A stretch of 64,000 nt of DNA, from the NCBI GenBank assembly GCA_902595145.1, contig CACJOU010000007.1, positions 1 to 64,000 of the forward strand, written 5' to 3'. Under the pieces are notes generated by a model. It ran no database searches and was not told where the DNA came from. It saw only the letters and a program-made list of their open reading frames with translations. Positions within the stretch are counted from its first letter, which is position 1. The number at the start of each line of letters is the position of its first letter. This document shows positions 32,327-53,202 of the stretch, one piece after another. The position numbers were made by a program, and so were the translations under genes. The DNA is from an uncultured SAR116 cluster alpha proteobacterium (GTDB lineage: Bacteria; Pseudomonadota; Alphaproteobacteria; Puniceispirillales; Marisalimonadaceae).

Positions 32327-32731
32327 ATGGCCCAACTTTATGAGAAATGTATAAGAAACGGTCTGAGAATGACACTGCCTAGAAAAATTATACTAGAAGT
32401 AATCGAGGATTCAGCTGATCACCCTGATGTGGATGAGATGTATAGAAGAGCTGTTGAAAAAGATCGTTCAATCTCAATCGCAACTGTTTACAGAACAATC
32501 AAATTATTTGAAGAGGCTGGAATAATTGAAAGATTAGATATTGGTGACGGCAGATCTCGATATGAAGAAGCTGGCGAACATCATGAACATCTAATTGATG
32601 TTGAAAGTGGTGAAATCATTGAATTTCAGAACGAAGAACTAGAAGAAATGAAAAGGCAGGTAGCTCTTAATATGGGATATGAACTAGTAGATCATAGATT
32701 AGAGTTATTTGGAAAAAAAATAAAAAAATAA
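32327..32731 (+). CDS. fur: Ferric uptake regulator Fur (alphaproteobacterial type)
   Basis: Fur represses iron genes when loaded with iron. The 134-residue protein has the winged helix (RMTLPRKIILEVIEDSADHP, then ISIATVYRTIKLFEEAGIIE) and the metal-binding HHEHLIDVESGEIIEFQNEE segment. The Cys pairs of enterobacterial Fur are replaced (LIDVESG), as in alphaproteobacterial Fur/Mur. AGGAAAAAAG precedes the ATG. A Fur-like box around 32294-32312 just upstream suggests autoregulation. Iron genes on both sides fit its target list. A Mur-type, manganese-sensing variant cannot be excluded. Confidence 0.92.
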   Translation: MAQLYEKCIRNGLRMTLPRKIILEVIEDSADHPDVDEMYRRAVEKDRSISIATVYRTIKLFEEAGIIERLDIGDGRSRYEEAGEHHEHLIDVESGEIIEFQNEELEEMKRQVALNMGYELVDHRLELFGKKIKK

Positions 32732-33686: not shown

Positions 33687-34724
33687 TCACCAACCCACCT
33701 GATCAATTATCATTTGTGCTTTTTTTGAATTTTTAGCAATCTCGCTTATTGGTAAACTATCTGACTTAAATGTACCCCATTCCATTATTTTCCCATCAAG
33801 TTTAACTTTTGGATTTACTGGATATTCAAAATTAACATTTGCATAAATTTTCTGTGCTTTTGGCATAGTAAGCCATTCAATAAATCTCAAAGCTTCTTCA
33901 CTATTTTTTGAATATTTTGCAATAGCCGCACCTGAAATGTTAACATGTTGTCCTCTATTACCTTGGTTATAGAATATTACTTCAGTAGCTCGTGCCCAAT
34001 TTTTTTGTTCAGGTTTCTTTTCATTAAATTTCATTAATGCAAAATAATATGTGTTCATTAAAACTATATCACACTCACCTGAGTAAATTCCTTTTGCTTG
34101 TGCTCTGTCATTACCTTTTGGTTTTCTTGCAAAATTTGAAACTAAACCTTCTGCCCATGATTTTGCTTTTGCCTCACCCTTATGGGCAATTATTGAAGCC
34201 AATAATGCTCTATTATATGGGTGGCTTCCAATTCTTGTGCAGATTTTCCCCCTGAACTTTGATTTTGCTAAATCTTCAATATCATTAATTTCATTTTTAT
34301 TAACTCTATCTTTTGAAATACCTATTATTCGAGCTCTAGTAGATAAACTAACCCATTTTTTGTTTATATCTCTTAAATGATTTGGAACATTTTTATTTAT
34401 TATGTCTGAGTTAATATTTTTAACTAAATCCATATCCGCAAGCTCAGATAATCTTGAAATATCAACGGTAAGAATCACATCCGCAGGAGAATTTTGTCCT
34501 TCGGATTTGAGCCTTTGCGCGAGGCCCTTCTTAGCGTGTAAAACGTTAAATTTTACTGAAAATTCTTTTTCATATTCTCTAGTAAATGGCTCCAAAAGAG
34601 CAGGGCTTCTATAAGAGTAAATATTTATCTCTTTTGCACTAGCGCGTTGAATTCCAAAAATTAAGATAGATAAACAAAAAATTAAGTTGAAAATACAAAA
34701 TAATAAAGATTTAAGACTTTTCAT
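33687..34724 (-). CDS. fbpA: Ferric iron-binding periplasmic protein FbpA
   Basis: The 345-residue protein captures Fe3+ in the periplasm and hands it to FbpB. It has a signal peptide (about residues 1-30, ending ASA), the mature start KEINIYSYRSPALLEPFTRE, and the twin-tyrosine iron site VLMNTYYFALM near the middle of the C-terminal lobe. A further family block is GQHVNISGAAIAKYSKNSEE. It is transcribed from a strong promoter covered by a Fur box (34746-34764). Confidence 0.92.
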   Translation of the reverse strand: MKSLKSLLFCIFNLIFCLSILIFGIQRASAKEINIYSYRSPALLEPFTREYEKEFSVKFNVLHAKKGLAQRLKSEGQNSPADVILTVDISRLSELADMDLVKNINSDIINKNVPNHLRDINKKWVSLSTRARIIGISKDRVNKNEINDIEDLAKSKFRGKICTRIGSHPYNRALLASIIAHKGEAKAKSWAEGLVSNFARKPKGNDRAQAKGIYSGECDIVLMNTYYFALMKFNEKKPEQKNWARATEVIFYNQGNRGQHVNISGAAIAKYSKNSEEALRFIEWLTMPKAQKIYANVNFEYPVNPKVKLDGKIMEWGTFKSDSLPISEIAKNSKKAQMIIDQVGW

Positions 34725-34745
34725 TTAAAACACCATTATGTTATT

Positions 34746-34764
34746 GCGAATCATTATCATTATT
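34746..34764 (-). promoter_or_regulatory. Fur box over the fbpA promoter
   Basis: Minus-strand AATAATGATAATGATTCGC matches about 15 of 19 positions of the Fur consensus. It covers the -10 element and start point of the fbpA promoter, whose hexamers lie at 34762-34790, the classical place for iron-dependent repression. Confidence 0.75.
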
Positions 34765-34790
34765 ATTGCTATAACTATTATCAATGTCAA
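34762..34790 (-). promoter_or_regulatory. Sigma-70 promoter of fbpA
   Basis: Minus-strand TTGACA (34785-34790), 17-bp spacer and AATAAT (34762-34767) give an excellent housekeeping promoter. The start point is near 34755, about 31 nt before the fbpA ATG. Confidence 0.75.
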
Positions 34791-34802
34791 ATTAATTTTT
34801 TT

Positions 34803-35777
34803 TTAACCTCCACCTATTAATATACCAGCAGCCAGAACTAGTGATCCACCAAATACCACTTGAAATACGGCTTTTGTAAATTTAATTTCCATATACTTTG
34901 CTTGTATCCACGCAATAGCCCAAAGCTCAACTAGTACAAAAAACATTGCAATCACTGTTGCAACATAAAAGTCAGTAATCAAATATGGGAGTGCATGACC
35001 TAACCCCCCTATTGTGGTCATAATGCCTGAGGCAAATCCTCGCTTTATTGGTGAACCTCTCCCTGATATTACTCCATCATCATGTACAGCTTCTGTAAAA
35101 CCCATTGAAATTCCAGCTCCTATAGATGCTGCCAAACCAACTAATAATGTTGTATGACTATCTTTTGTTGCGAAAGCAGTAGCAAAAATTGGAGCTAAAG
35201 TTGAAACTGATCCATCCATAAGACCGGCAAGACCCGGCTGGACCCATGTTAAAATAAATTGTCTTTTATCTTTAGTAACTTCCTCTTGGGCACTTCGTGA
35301 TTTTTGCGCATTCAATAATATTAATTTAGCATTATCTTTCTGCTCTCTACTCATTAATGCTAAGTCAATAAGTAAATTTCTAATTTCAATATTTTGGGAT
35401 TTTTTAGCAAAGGAATTATAAAATTGTGCAGATATAGTTTCCATTTCAATAATTTCTTTTCTAACTTCTTCAATAGAATTCTTTATTACCAACCATTCTG
35501 GTTTTCTTTTGAAATAATTAGCAATTTCTTTTTGGTCAGTAATGCTTAAAGTCTCACCAAATTTTTTTTTATGTAATTCAACTAATTTTTTTCTATTTTT
35601 ATTTTTTAAAATAGACATTTGTTTAAACATTTTTGACGTAACTGGGTAATTTATAAGAAAATGAGAAGAGTACTCATCATATAATTTTATATCTTCTTCT
35701 AAACTATCTATTGCAAGAGATAATATTTCATTATCATTTAAGTCTTGAAATTTCTTTTTTCTTAAAGATTTGTACAT
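34803..35777 (-). CDS. mbfA: MbfA-like ferritin-domain / CCC1 (VIT) membrane iron exporter
   Basis: MbfA exports or detoxifies iron at the inner membrane. Residues 10-160 form a ferritin/rubrerythrin-like helical domain and residues 175-324 a CCC1/VIT domain with about five membrane spans (QPGLAGLMDGSVSTLAPIFA, then GAGISMGFTEAVHDDG). The ferritin half keeps EED (residues 27-29). However, the two usual E-x-x-H metal motifs read LKNKNR (57-62) and SREQKDNA (143-150), so most di-iron ligands appear lost. A Fur-like box at 35854-35872 lies upstream. MbfA is characteristic of alphaproteobacteria. Confidence 0.85.
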   Translation of the reverse strand: MYKSLRKKKFQDLNDNEILSLAIDSLEEDIKLYDEYSSHFLINYPVTSKMFKQMSILKNKNRKKLVELHKKKFGETLSITDQKEIANYFKRKPEWLVIKNSIEEVRKEIIEMETISAQFYNSFAKKSQNIEIRNLLIDLALMSREQKDNAKLILLNAQKSRSAQEEVTKDKRQFILTWVQPGLAGLMDGSVSTLAPIFATAFATKDSHTTLLVGLAASIGAGISMGFTEAVHDDGVISGRGSPIKRGFASGIMTTIGGLGHALPYLITDFYVATVIAMFFVLVELWAIAWIQAKYMEIKFTKAVFQVVFGGSLVLAAGILIGGG

Positions 35778-35853
35778 AATGCATTCCCAAAGAGTTTTTT
35801 AATATATTAGTTTAATTAATAAGTCATTGAATTTATTATTTATTTTTGCAAAT

Positions 35854-35872
35854 GATAATGATTATTAAAATA
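35854..35872. promoter_or_regulatory. Fur box upstream of mbfA
   Basis: GATAATGATTATTAAAATA matches about 14 of 19 consensus positions and lies about 77 bp before the mbfA start on the minus strand, overlapping a possible -35 (TTGCAA). In other alphaproteobacteria mbfA is controlled by Irr, so Fur here would be a different wiring. Confidence 0.5.
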
Positions 35873-35885
35873 ATAAAATATATTA

Positions 35886-35914
35886 TTGACAATGATAATG
35901 ATTATCATTATTGT
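35886..35914 (+). promoter_or_regulatory. Strong promoter with an embedded near-perfect Fur box
   Basis: TTGACA (35886-35891), a 17-bp spacer and TATTGT (35909-35914) form a plus-strand promoter. Its spacer contains GATAATGATTATCATTATT at 35894-35912, matching 17 of 19 Fur consensus positions. Predicted start point is 35921. Confidence 0.8.
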
Positions 35915-35920
35915 CTATGT

Positions 35921-36007
35921 ATGGATGAACTCAATATATATCTCCCAAGATTAATTAAGTTCATCCACATTTCATTTAAAAATTTATAACTCTATAAGAT
36001 TTTTTTT
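35921..36007 (+). ncRNA. Candidate Fur-controlled small RNA
   Basis: The 311-bp gap between mbfA and the next gene is not empty. From the predicted start at 35921 a 10-bp stem (TGGATGAACT, 35922-35931, pairing with 35958-35967) encloses a 26-base loop. That loop contains CTCCC (35942-35946), complementary to Shine-Dalgarno GGGAG. A weak AU hairpin (35984-35997) and eight T's (36000-36007) could end it at about 87 nt. Size, Fur control and the exposed anti-Shine-Dalgarno loop resemble RyhB-class or alphaproteobacterial anti-SD sRNAs. A 22-codon ORF also starts exactly at 35921, so a leaderless peptide is the alternative. Confidence 0.55.
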
Positions 36008-36088
36008 ATAAATTACAAATATCTATTAAATCATTGTAAATGTTAATCGACCTAAGTAATATTTTATTAAAAAAATTTGGTATCACAC

Positions 36089-37216
36089 ATGAATAATAAT
36101 GAATTTCAGATAGCTACCGTACCTGGAGATGGGATAGGCAAAGACATAGTAAATTCAGCTATCTCAATTGTTGACTTGTCTTCAAAAATAACAGGTGGAT
36201 TTAAATGCGAATGGCATATGATCAAAGCAGGAGCAGAATATTATTCTTTGACTGGAAAAGATGTTGAACCAGGAGGAGAAAAAAAAGTTGATGAACTCGA
36301 TAGTATTTTTTTGGGTGCAATTGGGTTACCTACTGTTCGTCACAAAGATGGAACTGAAATATGCCCTCACCTAAGATTTAGAGAAATGTTTGGTTTATAT
36401 GCAGGTGTAAGGCCAGTTAAAGCATACAAAAATATACCAAATAGATTAAGTAATGAATTATCAAGAAATATAGATTTAGTTATTTTAAGAGAATCTACTG
36501 AAGGATTATTTTATACTGCTGCTGTTCACAATAGATGTCCTGTAGAAAATGATAAAGAAGTGCAAGATGTAATGAAAATAACTAGAGCAACTACTGAAAA
36601 ATTACATAATTTTGCATTTAAATTAGCAAGACAAAGAAAGAAAAAAGGTAAGCTTGGAAAAGTTACTTGTGTAGATAAAGCTAATGTTTTCAGATCACAG
36701 GCGTTTTTCAGAAAAATATTTGATGAAAGAAAAGTTAAATTTAAAGATATAGATGCTGACCATTGCTATGTTGATGCAATGGCACTCAACTTGATTAGAA
36801 ATCCTTGGGAATACGATGTAATGGTGATGGAAAATATGTTTGGTGATATATTATCTGATTTAGGAGGAGGCCTTATCGGAGGCATGGGTATGGCATCATG
36901 TGCTGAAATAGGTGATAATCATGGATTATTTCAACCTGCCCATGGGAGTGCGCCTGATATACTCGGACAGGACAAGGCTAATCCGCTAGCTACTATTTTA
37001 AGTGCATCTCTGATGCTCGAATATCTATCTGATAAAACAAAATGTAAAAGTACTTTGTTAAGTTCTAGATTAATTGAGACTGCAATTGAAATTGGTTTTG
37101 AAAGAAATGAATTAAGACCAATAGAATTTGGAGGTGATATGGGAACAACGGCAATAACTGAAACTTTAAGTGGTTTATTAAAAGATAATGAAATTCAAAA
37201 ACAAATATTAACTTAA
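36089..37216 (+). CDS. Isocitrate/isopropylmalate-family dehydrogenase of the acid-sugar cassette
   Basis: A 375-residue beta-decarboxylating NAD(P)-dependent dehydrogenase: TVPGDGIGKDIVNSAISIVD, RESTEGLFYTAAVHN, metal site VMENMFGDILSDLGGGLIGG and PAHGSAPDILGQDKANPLAT. It is a distant paralogue of the TtuC-like protein at 29459 and of LeuB, with its own substrate pocket (RHKDGTEICPHLRFREMFGL). It heads a run with a monooxygenase-like protein and an OtnK-type kinase. It may therefore act on a four-carbon 3-hydroxy acid or its phosphate, in place of the usual PdxA-like enzyme. ATG at 36089 preferred to TTG at 36077. Confidence 0.8.
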   Translation: MNNNEFQIATVPGDGIGKDIVNSAISIVDLSSKITGGFKCEWHMIKAGAEYYSLTGKDVEPGGEKKVDELDSIFLGAIGLPTVRHKDGTEICPHLRFREMFGLYAGVRPVKAYKNIPNRLSNELSRNIDLVILRESTEGLFYTAAVHNRCPVENDKEVQDVMKITRATTEKLHNFAFKLARQRKKKGKLGKVTCVDKANVFRSQAFFRKIFDERKVKFKDIDADHCYVDAMALNLIRNPWEYDVMVMENMFGDILSDLGGGLIGGMGMASCAEIGDNHGLFQPAHGSAPDILGQDKANPLATILSASLMLEYLSDKTKCKSTLLSSRLIETAIEIGFERNELRPIEFGGDMGTTAITETLSGLLKDNEIQKQILT

Positions 37217-37234
37217 GAGGAGATTAATAAATTA

Positions 37235-37525
37235 ATGTTTGTAATTACAGTAAAATTCGTAATCCACGAAAAAGATATAGACAAATTTAAAACTAGAATT
37301 TTACAACAAGCTAGAGACTCTCTTGAACTTGAAAAAGATTGTCATGAGTTTGATGTATGTCATGATCCAAATGACCAAAATGTAGTTTTTTTATATGAGA
37401 CATATACTGATAAAGACGCTTTTGATATTCACCTTCAAAGCGATCATTATAGAGCTTTTAATGAAGAGGTTACTCCTTGGGTTAAAGAAAAAATTGTCAC
37501 AAAGCTTGAAAAACAGAAACTATAA
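37235..37525 (+). CDS. ABM-domain (quinol monooxygenase-like) protein
   Basis: The 96-residue protein has the ferredoxin-like fold of antibiotic-biosynthesis-monooxygenase proteins: VITVKFVIHEKDIDKFKTRI, HEFDVCHDPNDQNVVFLYET, then KDAFDIHLQSDHYRAFNEEV. These small dimers act as quinol monooxygenases, isomerases or heme-binding proteins. It is preceded by AGGAG and lies 18 bp after the dehydrogenase and 12 bp before the kinase, so it belongs to the same pathway. Its role is not clear. Confidence 0.82.
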   Translation: MFVITVKFVIHEKDIDKFKTRILQQARDSLELEKDCHEFDVCHDPNDQNVVFLYETYTDKDAFDIHLQSDHYRAFNEEVTPWVKEKIVTKLEKQKL

Positions 37526-51493: not shown

Positions 51494-53202
51494 TGAGTTC
51501 AAAAATAACGAGATCATCATATGCAGAAATGTTTGGCCCTACGACTGGTGACAAAGTTAGATTGGCTGACACAGACTTGTTTATAGAAGTTGAAAATGAT
51601 TTAACTGTCTATGGCGAGGAAGTAAAATTTGGTGGTGGAAAAGTAATTAGAGACGGTATGGGCCAGTCACAAGTTACAAGAAAAGATGGCGCCGTTGACA
51701 CTGTTATCACAAACGCACTGATAGTTGATGTAAATGGAATATTCAAAGCAGATATTGGAATTAAAGATGGTATAATTCAAAAAATTGGAAAATCTGGAAA
51801 TCCTGATACTCAACCAAAAATTGATATTATTATTGGACCTGGCACAGAAATAATCGCAGGTGAGGGTAAAATCATTACAGCAGGAGGATTTGATTCTCAC
51901 ATCCACTATATATGTCCTCAACAAATTGACGATGCTCTACACTCAGGTTTAACAACAATGCTAGGAGGTGGTACTGGACCTGCTCATGGTACATTAGCAA
52001 CAACATGCACACCTGGATCATGGCATATTGGTAAAATGATTCAATCAGCGGATGCTTTTTCTATGAATCTTGCATTTGCTGGTAAAGGCAATTCTTCTAA
52101 ACCAGAGGGATTAATTGAACAGGTAAATGCCGGAGCTTGCGCACTGAAATTACACGAAGATTGGGGAACCACTCCTGGTGCTATAGATAACTGTCTAAAC
52201 GTAGCTGACAAAATGGATGTTCAAGTAATGATACATACAGATACATTGAATGAAAGTGGATTTGTAGAAAATACTATAAAAGCTATCAATAATAGAACAA
52301 TTCATGCCTTTCATACTGAAGGTGCTGGTGGAGGCCATGCTCCTGACATCATTAAAGTATGCGGGAATGAAAATGTAATACCATCATCTACTAATCCAAC
52401 AAGACCCTATACGATAAATACTTTAGAAGAGCATTTGGATATGCTTATGGTATGTCATCATTTAGATAAATCAATTCCAGAAGACGTTGCCTTTGCCGAA
52501 AGCAGAATTAGAAAAGAGACTATAGCTGCAGAGGATATCCTCCATGATTTAGGTGCCTTTTCAATTATAGCTTCTGACAGTCAAGCAATGGGAAGAGTTG
52601 GAGAAGTTATTATCAGAACTTGGCAAACAGCTCACAAAATGAAAGTTCAAAGAGGTCGTCTACAGGAAGAAAAAGGTGATAATGATAATGTAAGAGTTAA
52701 AAGATATGTAGCTAAATACACAATTAATCCAGCTATAACTCACGGTTTATCTAAACATATAGGTTCAATAACTGAAGGTAAAAGAGCTGATATTGTGATA
52801 TGGGATCCAGCTTTTTTTGGAGTAAAGCCAGAGATTGTAATTCTCGGTGGAAGCATTGCTTGTGCTCAAATGGGTGATCCTAACGCATCAATTCCAACTC
52901 CACAGCCTGTATATACAAGACCAATGTTTTCTTCTTATGGAAGGTCTCTAGAGACATCTTCAATTACTTTTGTCAGTAAAGATTCTATTAAATCTGGAAG
53001 TTTAGACTCATTAAGACTTGCTAAAAAAACTGTTGCTATTGAGAAGACAAGAGACATATCAAAAAAGGATATGGTTTATAATAACTATTGCCCAGATATT
53101 TCTGTTGATCCTGAAACATATGAAGTTACAGCTGATGGGGAAGTTCTCACCTGTGAGCCGGCTAATGAATTACCCATGGCACAAAGATATTTTTTATTTT
53201 AG
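51493..53202 (+). CDS. ureC: Urease alpha (catalytic) subunit UreC
   Basis: UreC hydrolyses urea at a di-nickel centre. In the 569-residue protein all ligands are present with canonical numbering: His136 and His138 ([10 protein letters not shown]), the carbamylated Lys219 ([10 protein letters not shown]), His248, His274 and Asp362 ([10 protein letters not shown]). The flap Cys321-His322-His323 ([15 protein letters not shown]) is also intact. The enzyme should be active. A 16-residue N-terminal extension absent from classic UreC is not seen, so the start at 51493 is right. Confidence 0.98.

Follow-up and report, generated by a model that had tools for sequence, protein, structure and literature searches.

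A conserved Fur-box promoter and hairpin in a SAR116 genus: a candidate iron-sparing small RNA with an anti-Shine-Dalgarno loop

The window analysed here is a stretch of 64,000 nucleotides from an uncultured SAR116 cluster alphaproteobacterium (contig CACJOU010000007.1). A gene for an MbfA-like iron exporter (rubrerythrin plus VIT1) lies on the minus strand at 34803–35777 (NF045676, 445.6 bits, just below the cut-off of 450). It is divergent from a plus-strand gene at 36089–37216, which is assigned, at family level, to the isocitrate/isopropylmalate dehydrogenases (Iso_dh). A Fur-family regulator is encoded at 32327–32731 (+), its best NCBIfam match being the ferric uptake regulator at a score below the cut-off. 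Together with an ABC permease and a periplasmic binding protein, the regulator and the exporter are found within 6 kb of a hairpin that lies between the two divergent genes.

The initial annotation placed in front of this hairpin a promoter with a Fur box in its spacer, and both can be read directly in the sequence: TTGACA at 35886–35891 (+), a 17-bp spacer and TATTGT at 35909–35914 (+). Our promoter scan of 34700–37300 gives this pair a score of 10/12, with one site elsewhere in the segment scoring 11 and two scoring 10. The scan is in itself weak proof of a promoter, since it reports 22 promoter-like sites where shuffled sequences give 15.8 (sd 4.3). TTGAC stands 5' of the hairpin at all 23 hairpin loci recovered from related genomes, and the –10 hexamer is TATTAA-like in many relatives. 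The Fur box, GATAATGATTATCATTATT at 35894–35912 (+), agrees at 17 of 19 positions with GATAATGATAATCATTATC, the classical consensus; it fills the spacer, as had been claimed, and shares four bases with the –10 hexamer. To judge from its position, the box is placed so as to repress the promoter, as in the class of Fur-repressed iron-sparing sRNAs, and visual inspection shows a similar palindrome at the 23 loci. A search of the whole window for the 19-mer consensus with up to three mismatches returned four matches versus 0.28 expected (0 of 100 shuffles reached four), three of which are the 35894–35912 site or overlapping palindromic readings of it. The fourth, at 34746–34764 with three mismatches, lies inside a minus-strand promoter-like stretch immediately 5' of the periplasmic binding-protein gene (33687–34724). 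A second Fur-box-like palindrome, AATGATAATGATTATTAAA at 35851–35869, is closer to the divergent iron-exporter gene and differs in at least one base in relatives.

Folding and the covariance model described below place the hairpin at 35922–35967 (+). Its outer stem of 10 bp, TGGATGAACT/AGTTCATCCA, pairs 35922–35931 with 35958–35967 and encloses a loop of 26 nt (35932–35957) with CTCCC at 35942–35946, exactly as first described. The predicted fold also has a 4-bp mini-stem, AUCU/AGAU, inside the loop (35940–35943/35948–35951), and the CCCA tetraloop at 35944–35947 has a predicted unpaired probability of 0.99–1.00 across the 23 homologues. For the 91-nt segment the folding energy is –16.4 kcal/mol (z –3.43), a value reached by none of 200 shuffles. 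The T8 run noted earlier does exist at 36000–36007 (+), as a possible terminator of the window's own sequence group only; as a conserved terminator it fails, being shorter in G012 and G035 and missing from the other two sequence groups. A terminator scan of 34700–37300 called none at this run, and no conserved intrinsic terminator was found between the hairpin and the Iso_dh-family gene across the 23 carriers.

The source genus is an AT-rich SAR116 group represented by 40 genomes, mostly incomplete, among 136 of the order. A covariance model built on 21 sequences detects the hairpin in 23 of the 40, at a single place in each, with E values of 1.9e-13 or better, and promoter and Fur box are retained along with it. 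The remaining 96 genomes of the order gave no convincing match, the set of 136 being above the 40 genomes beyond which the tool applies stricter filters and weak matches can be lost. Given this conservation, the observation as a whole is confirmed at the level of sequence comparison and exceeds chance. In a DNA search of 61 genomes the full 237 query bases were aligned in eight close relatives, while eleven more distant genomes of the genus align only over approximately query bases 1–131, 23–131, 47–131 or 47–145, that is, over promoter and hairpin and, in some, the segment preceding them. Conservation does not stop at the operator and reaches its peak in the loop: the seed TATCTCCCAAGATT (35939–35952, +) is identical in 23 of 23 loci, 2-nt indels sitting beside this seed and never within it. 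The stem hardly varies, and for this reason the covariation check suggested by the initial annotation gives no support either way (0 of 14 pairs altered on both sides; paired cells 92.9% versus a shuffled mean of 92.9%). As judged from these alignments, the element is short, structured and non-coding with a conserved seed, like members of the iron-sparing sRNA class, its structure being without covariation backing.

Among the 17 genus genomes with no match, the Iso_dh gene is likewise missing from 12 at E 1e-60, and the contigs of G003, G013 and G008 stop at the hairpin site or short of it. Only G005 and G030 have the Iso_dh gene and its upstream region without the hairpin, which is present in 23 of 25 informative genomes. 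A covariance match in G047 (L084, E 0.012) falls inside the CDS of a gene that looks flagellar by eye and was taken as chance; minus-strand matches at the same places as the plus-strand ones reflect the hairpin's own palindrome. The hairpin pattern has 0 matches in viral contigs, and no Rfam family matches the hairpin region of the window at gathering thresholds.

A leaderless ORF of 22 codons (MDELNIYLPRLIKFIHISFKNL in the window) had been offered as a second reading, either as the product itself or as part of a dual-function RNA. The full 22 codons are open in the window as well as in five close relatives, and the first codons, (V/M)DELK(L/I)YLPRL, are common to many. Its length, however, runs from 11 to 59 codons across the 23 genomes, and a 2-nt change in G018, G020, G035 and G012 breaks the frame past codon 6 with the nucleotide loop still identical. 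On these grounds we reject the ORF claim and give a coding or dual function hardly any credence.

The gene upstream of the hairpin varies among the 23 carriers: it is a divergent MbfA-like gene in 11, a divergent ferritin-like gene in 9 and a plus-strand ORF in G033 and G021, and in G023 it is not visible (labels assigned by motif, one ferritin verified by Pfam). Of the 22 carriers with a visible upstream side, 20 thus have a divergent MbfA-like or ferritin gene, and the second Fur-like box lies closer to this gene, as would suit a Fur-regulated control region of an iron storage or export gene in which the hairpin is incidental. We regard this as very improbable: G033 and G021 have a plus-strand ORF in that place and yet keep promoter, Fur box and hairpin, the conserved –35 and –10 hexamers face the hairpin, and the conservation maximum lies beyond the operator. 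As an observation in its own right, iron export and storage genes exchange at one site adjoining the same Fur-box hairpin element (L061–L083).

Downstream, the same Iso_dh-family gene is present in the orientation of the hairpin in 23 of 23 carriers, with a conserved Iso_dh motif 166–200 nt past the hairpin start. An apparent separation of the two in G025 was set aside, as its locus (L071) has the Iso_dh start after the hairpin and the frame then enters another protein, which means an assembly join or a rearrangement. This constant pairing of hairpin and Iso_dh gene next to a changing upstream gene, with no conserved terminator between the two, would be expected if the Iso_dh-family mRNA began with the hairpin as a Fur-controlled cis leader that affects stability or translation and has no trans role of its own. 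Such a leader, however, leaves the exact loop complement conserved on the ribosome-binding sites (RBSs) of other genes to be accounted for, while no conserved complement of the invariant loop is seen by eye at the Iso_dh start; moreover, the sequence from hairpin to gene varies between groups, and G030 and G005 retain the Iso_dh gene without promoter or hairpin. We consider a purely cis role unlikely, and a mixed version, with an sRNA released from the Iso_dh leader, is compatible with the trans-acting RNA that we favour. The initial annotation held that no large gene uses this promoter, but the Iso_dh-family gene may do so, as it always follows the hairpin with no conserved terminator between; the RNA could then be a processing product of the Iso_dh-family mRNA or begin at the same start, which would alter how it is made and leave its predicted trans action unchanged. 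The iso_dh tree places G005 among hairpin carriers, and this genome has both mbfA and iso_dh without the module, which is therefore separable from these genes.

The loop is complementary to the Shine-Dalgarno (SD) regions of a number of genes. Exact copies of TCTCCCAAGATT occupy 41 places in the 40 genomes (5 for the reversed-pattern control), of which 23 are the hairpins themselves. Fourteen of the 18 copies outside the hairpin are antisense on an RBS, 12 of them that of a 4Fe-4S polyferredoxin gene and 2 that of a PuuD-like gene; the remaining 4 fall within one CDS. These lie antisense about 20 codons into that CDS (MNIDSSEYSLEFRHIG... in L045) in four genomes (L045, L038, L054, L056, around 1501) and are possibly an early-CDS target or chance. 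One-mismatch matches to ATCTTGGGAGAT are scarcely over the reversed control in many genomes. Orthologue searches independent of the motif covered polyferredoxin in 17 genomes and the IlvD/Edd Fe-S dehydratase in 32, 30 of the latter fetched as loci. The polyferredoxin SD is CTTGGGAG in 16 of 17 genomes, including all 11 that are positive with the covariance model, and the IlvD/Edd SD is TTGGGAG in 26 of 30, including 18 of 19 positive ones; in G009 the hairpin is present, yet the IlvD/Edd SD is CTTGTGAG.

Start sites were also searched with two patterns, YTTGGGAG shortly before ATG in the 40 genomes and TTGGGAG before ATG in six genomes. Among the matches listed, such starts recur at genes for IlvD/Edd, PuuD-like protein, UxaA/GarD-type dehydratase, intradiol dioxygenase, xanthine-dehydrogenase-type FAD subunit (CoxM) and PhyH dioxygenase; starts of genes not linked to iron (PIG-L, prs, polysaccharide deacetylase, amidase and others) recur as well. 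The places examined as loci were all those of G000 (15), G013 (19) and G021 (37 rows), 14 of 25 in G006 plus two more, 11 of 30 in G002 and 0 of 22 in G022. Orthologues of five of these genes, searched without use of the motif, were then checked in 14 chosen genomes (53 rows minus one truncated UxaA and one truncated CoxM). The PuuD-like SD is CTTGGGAG in 7 of 9 cases (5 of 5 in the covariance-model-positive genomes examined), and TTGGGAG precedes intradiol dioxygenase in 4 of 8 (hairpin carriers 4/4), UxaA in 4 of 12 (3/7), CoxM in 5 of 13 (4/7) and PhyH in 1 of 9 (1/4). PhyH was dropped as a core target on account of this single case among the chosen carriers (G000 also has TTGGGAG there). 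Iron binding is established for 4Fe-4S ferredoxin domains, IlvD/Edd, TauD, PhyH, intradiol dioxygenases and IspG, and the UxaA/GarD family binds iron too; the PuuD-like protein (193 aa) is counted among the targets by RBS pairing, its status as an iron protein being putative. By sequence complementarity, the seed is matched to RBSs of iron-protein mRNAs across species, as in the iron-sparing class, with exceptions in UxaA, CoxM, PhyH and G009.

At the polyferredoxin RBS of several genomes (L256–L272) the SD itself sits within a small hairpin, AAUCU-UGGG-AGAUU, which mirrors the mini-hairpin AUCU-CCCA-AGAU of the candidate sRNA and suggests a kissing start of pairing. A cis-acting hairpin at the target RBS was considered as a common cause of conservation and rejected, as it is unstable at polyferredoxin of G036, G021 and G029 and G006 and G061 lack a stable hairpin at their PuuD-like sites.

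Pairing energies were compared, with a single loop sequence throughout, against 372 called gene starts in 400 kb of G021, among which the polyferredoxin, IlvD/Edd and intradiol genes of this genome do not figure. The best pairing in this background is –15.8 kcal/mol. Five polyferredoxin sites of carriers, at –19.3 to –22.3 kcal/mol, and four of their PuuD-like sites, at –18.8 to –21.5 kcal/mol, are stronger than any of the 372 starts. Of seven IlvD/Edd sites in carriers, three beat all 372 (two barely, at –15.9), three are in the top 2% and that of G009 is unremarkable. Iron genes are not obviously on top when the 372 G021 genes are ranked by energy. TTGGGAG lies upstream of one of the 372, a PIG-L gene. 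Seven clean TTGGGAG starts were found in G021, a site in the FtsX region being excluded as internal: three belong to iron proteins (IlvD/Edd, intradiol, polyferredoxin), one to the FAD subunit of an Fe-S-linked enzyme family and three to the non-iron PIG-L, amidohydrolase and amidase. Among 30 random G021 genes, two are iron proteins by family (TauD, GcpE) and six have no family at E 1e-10. The enrichment of iron genes at TTGGGAG starts is therefore modest, suggestive and not decisive.

The match of the loop to SDs could also be a coincidence: GGGAG makes a good SD by itself, SDs are matched by any C-rich loop, and conservation of the loop may have another cause, for example protein binding. 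The modest iron-gene enrichment agrees with this, as do some targets that still pair in hairpin-less G030. But TTGGGAG is rare at starts (1/372), the exact 12-mer complements concentrate on the RBSs of two gene families in the orientation required for pairing, and the polyferredoxin and PuuD-like sites exceed all starts sampled. We think coincidence quite unlikely, slightly more so than a purely cis leader; the probabilities of these readings are not additive because they overlap, a purely cis leader implying that the SD matches are coincidental.

Genome G030 offers a contrast. It is rated 100% complete, has no covariance-model match and carries iso_dh and the mbfA-like gene adjacent to each other. 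Target sites are altered in it at four of seven genes examined, the SD being AAAAAGGAG for PuuD-like, TTTGGAG for IlvD/Edd, CTTTGGAG for polyferredoxin and TAGGAGG for intradiol dioxygenase. Because of these changes pairing is weaker at all four: PuuD-like and IlvD/Edd fall to background level (both –7.3), the dioxygenase comes near it (–9.4) and polyferredoxin is at –14.2. UxaA (–15.6) and CoxM (–19.0) still pair strongly despite the absence of the hairpin, and PhyH is at –6.5, having no motif in most genomes anyway. IlvD/Edd has TTTGGAG also in G027 and G028, which belong to the same clade as G030 in the (unrooted) IlvD tree; no Iso_dh gene was found in these two assemblies, hence they are not counted as hairpin-less. 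One clade makes one contrast, with at most one or two evolutionary events behind it, and the comparison of genomes with and without the hairpin rests on G030, as the IlvD and CoxM starts of G005 lie beyond contig ends.

The initial annotation had seen here a Fur-controlled small RNA with an anti-SD loop, of RyhB type in function, and this idea is supported by conservation in 23 of 40 genomes, by the invariant loop and by the complementarity to iron-gene SDs. In our reading the locus would encode a short RNA with its 5' end near 35921. When iron is abundant, Fe-Fur bound in the promoter spacer would block RNA polymerase; with iron low, the block would be lifted and the RNA made. Its 5'-terminal hairpin would display the invariant C-rich loop AUCUCCCAAGAUU with CCCA at the tip, and this loop would pair with UUGGGAG-type SD regions and stop translation of mRNAs for iron-using proteins. 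The predicted targets are the 4Fe-4S polyferredoxin (AAUCUUGGGAGAU, 12–14 bp), the IlvD/Edd Fe-S dehydratase, the PuuD-like membrane protein and the intradiol dioxygenase, with the UxaA/GarD-type dehydratase and the xanthine-dehydrogenase-type operon as less regular ones; the net effect would be iron sparing. A Fur-repressed trans-acting RNA that masks the SDs of iron-protein mRNAs is, on this evidence, the best reading of the locus and a probable one. Transcription, the iron response, the translational block and the length and 3' end of the RNA we infer from the conserved promoter, Fur box and hairpin, the conserved RBS complementarity of the loop and its change at four sites in G030. We also lean, with some reserve, towards a new RNA family, found so far in one SAR116 genus: an iron-sparing sRNA of about 50–90 nt under putatively direct Fur control, with a single 5' hairpin and target sites that appear to be gained and lost together with the RNA.

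Known iron-sparing RNAs resemble the candidate in part. RyhB, PrrF and NrrF have a seed and an architecture unlike those of the SAR116 candidate. No match at gathering score to RyhB or to another Rfam sRNA family was seen in the hairpin region, and no Hfq was seen in a crude motif scan of the retrieved loci. The Fur-repressed, iron-sparing logic would be common to both (PMC9410917, PMC3751524, PMC9294342). Staphylococcal IsrR is Fur-repressed, as is predicted for the candidate, with single-stranded C-rich regions contributing to pairing with iron-enzyme mRNAs; unlike the SAR116 candidate with its one hairpin and one C-rich loop, it is 174 nt long, has three C-rich regions and comes from another phylum (PMC9410917). 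FsrA of Bacillus subtilis is a Fur-regulated iron-sparing RNA whose C-rich motif binds SDs, as is predicted here, but it uses the three chaperones FbpABC (PMC9410917). The likeness to IsrR and FsrA rests on descriptions, the Rfam scan of the region having no match and our RNA model having been searched in this order only.

Among alphaproteobacteria, RusT of Caulobacter crescentus is an sRNA induced by iron starvation, as our candidate would be, but it is described as NtrYX-controlled with mainly membrane-protein targets (PMC11005374). Transcript R0117 of the same species, a 1-kb RNA, increases at low iron and in a fur mutant (PMC6120978), as does the Fur-repressed CC0682-CC0681 operon, whose processing into iron-sparing sRNAs was speculated upon (PMC3751524). 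They differ from our candidate in that a conserved Fur box is reported to be missing upstream of the iron-responsive Caulobacter sRNAs (PMC6120978), and the portions consulted of both papers name no targets (PMC6120978, PMC3751524). Our search of one open-access library found no Fur-box sRNA of SAR116 and, in the portions of papers it covered, no alphaproteobacterial iron-sparing sRNA with shown targets. For SAR11 under iron limitation a mismatch between mRNA and protein was reported, with cold-shock proteins proposed (PMC2864753). Should its expression be confirmed, the candidate would count as a new regulatory RNA for iron sparing, and one with a defined seed would thereby enter the Alphaproteobacteria and the bacteria of the ocean. 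The pattern of presence and absence in one genus of ocean bacteria would provide a natural experiment in which the joint evolution of sRNA and targets is directly testable.

Two minor observations concern other parts of the data. The sole Rfam match of the whole window is RF02514 (5_ureB_sRNA, 85.7 bits) at 51648–51932 (–), which we suspect reflects conserved ureB coding sequence and not an RNA gene. In G012 (L109) and G035 (L108) the hairpin region belongs to the sequence group of the window, yet their Iso_dh genes cluster with the other clade, a mismatch that suggests recombination near the 5' end of the Iso_dh gene.
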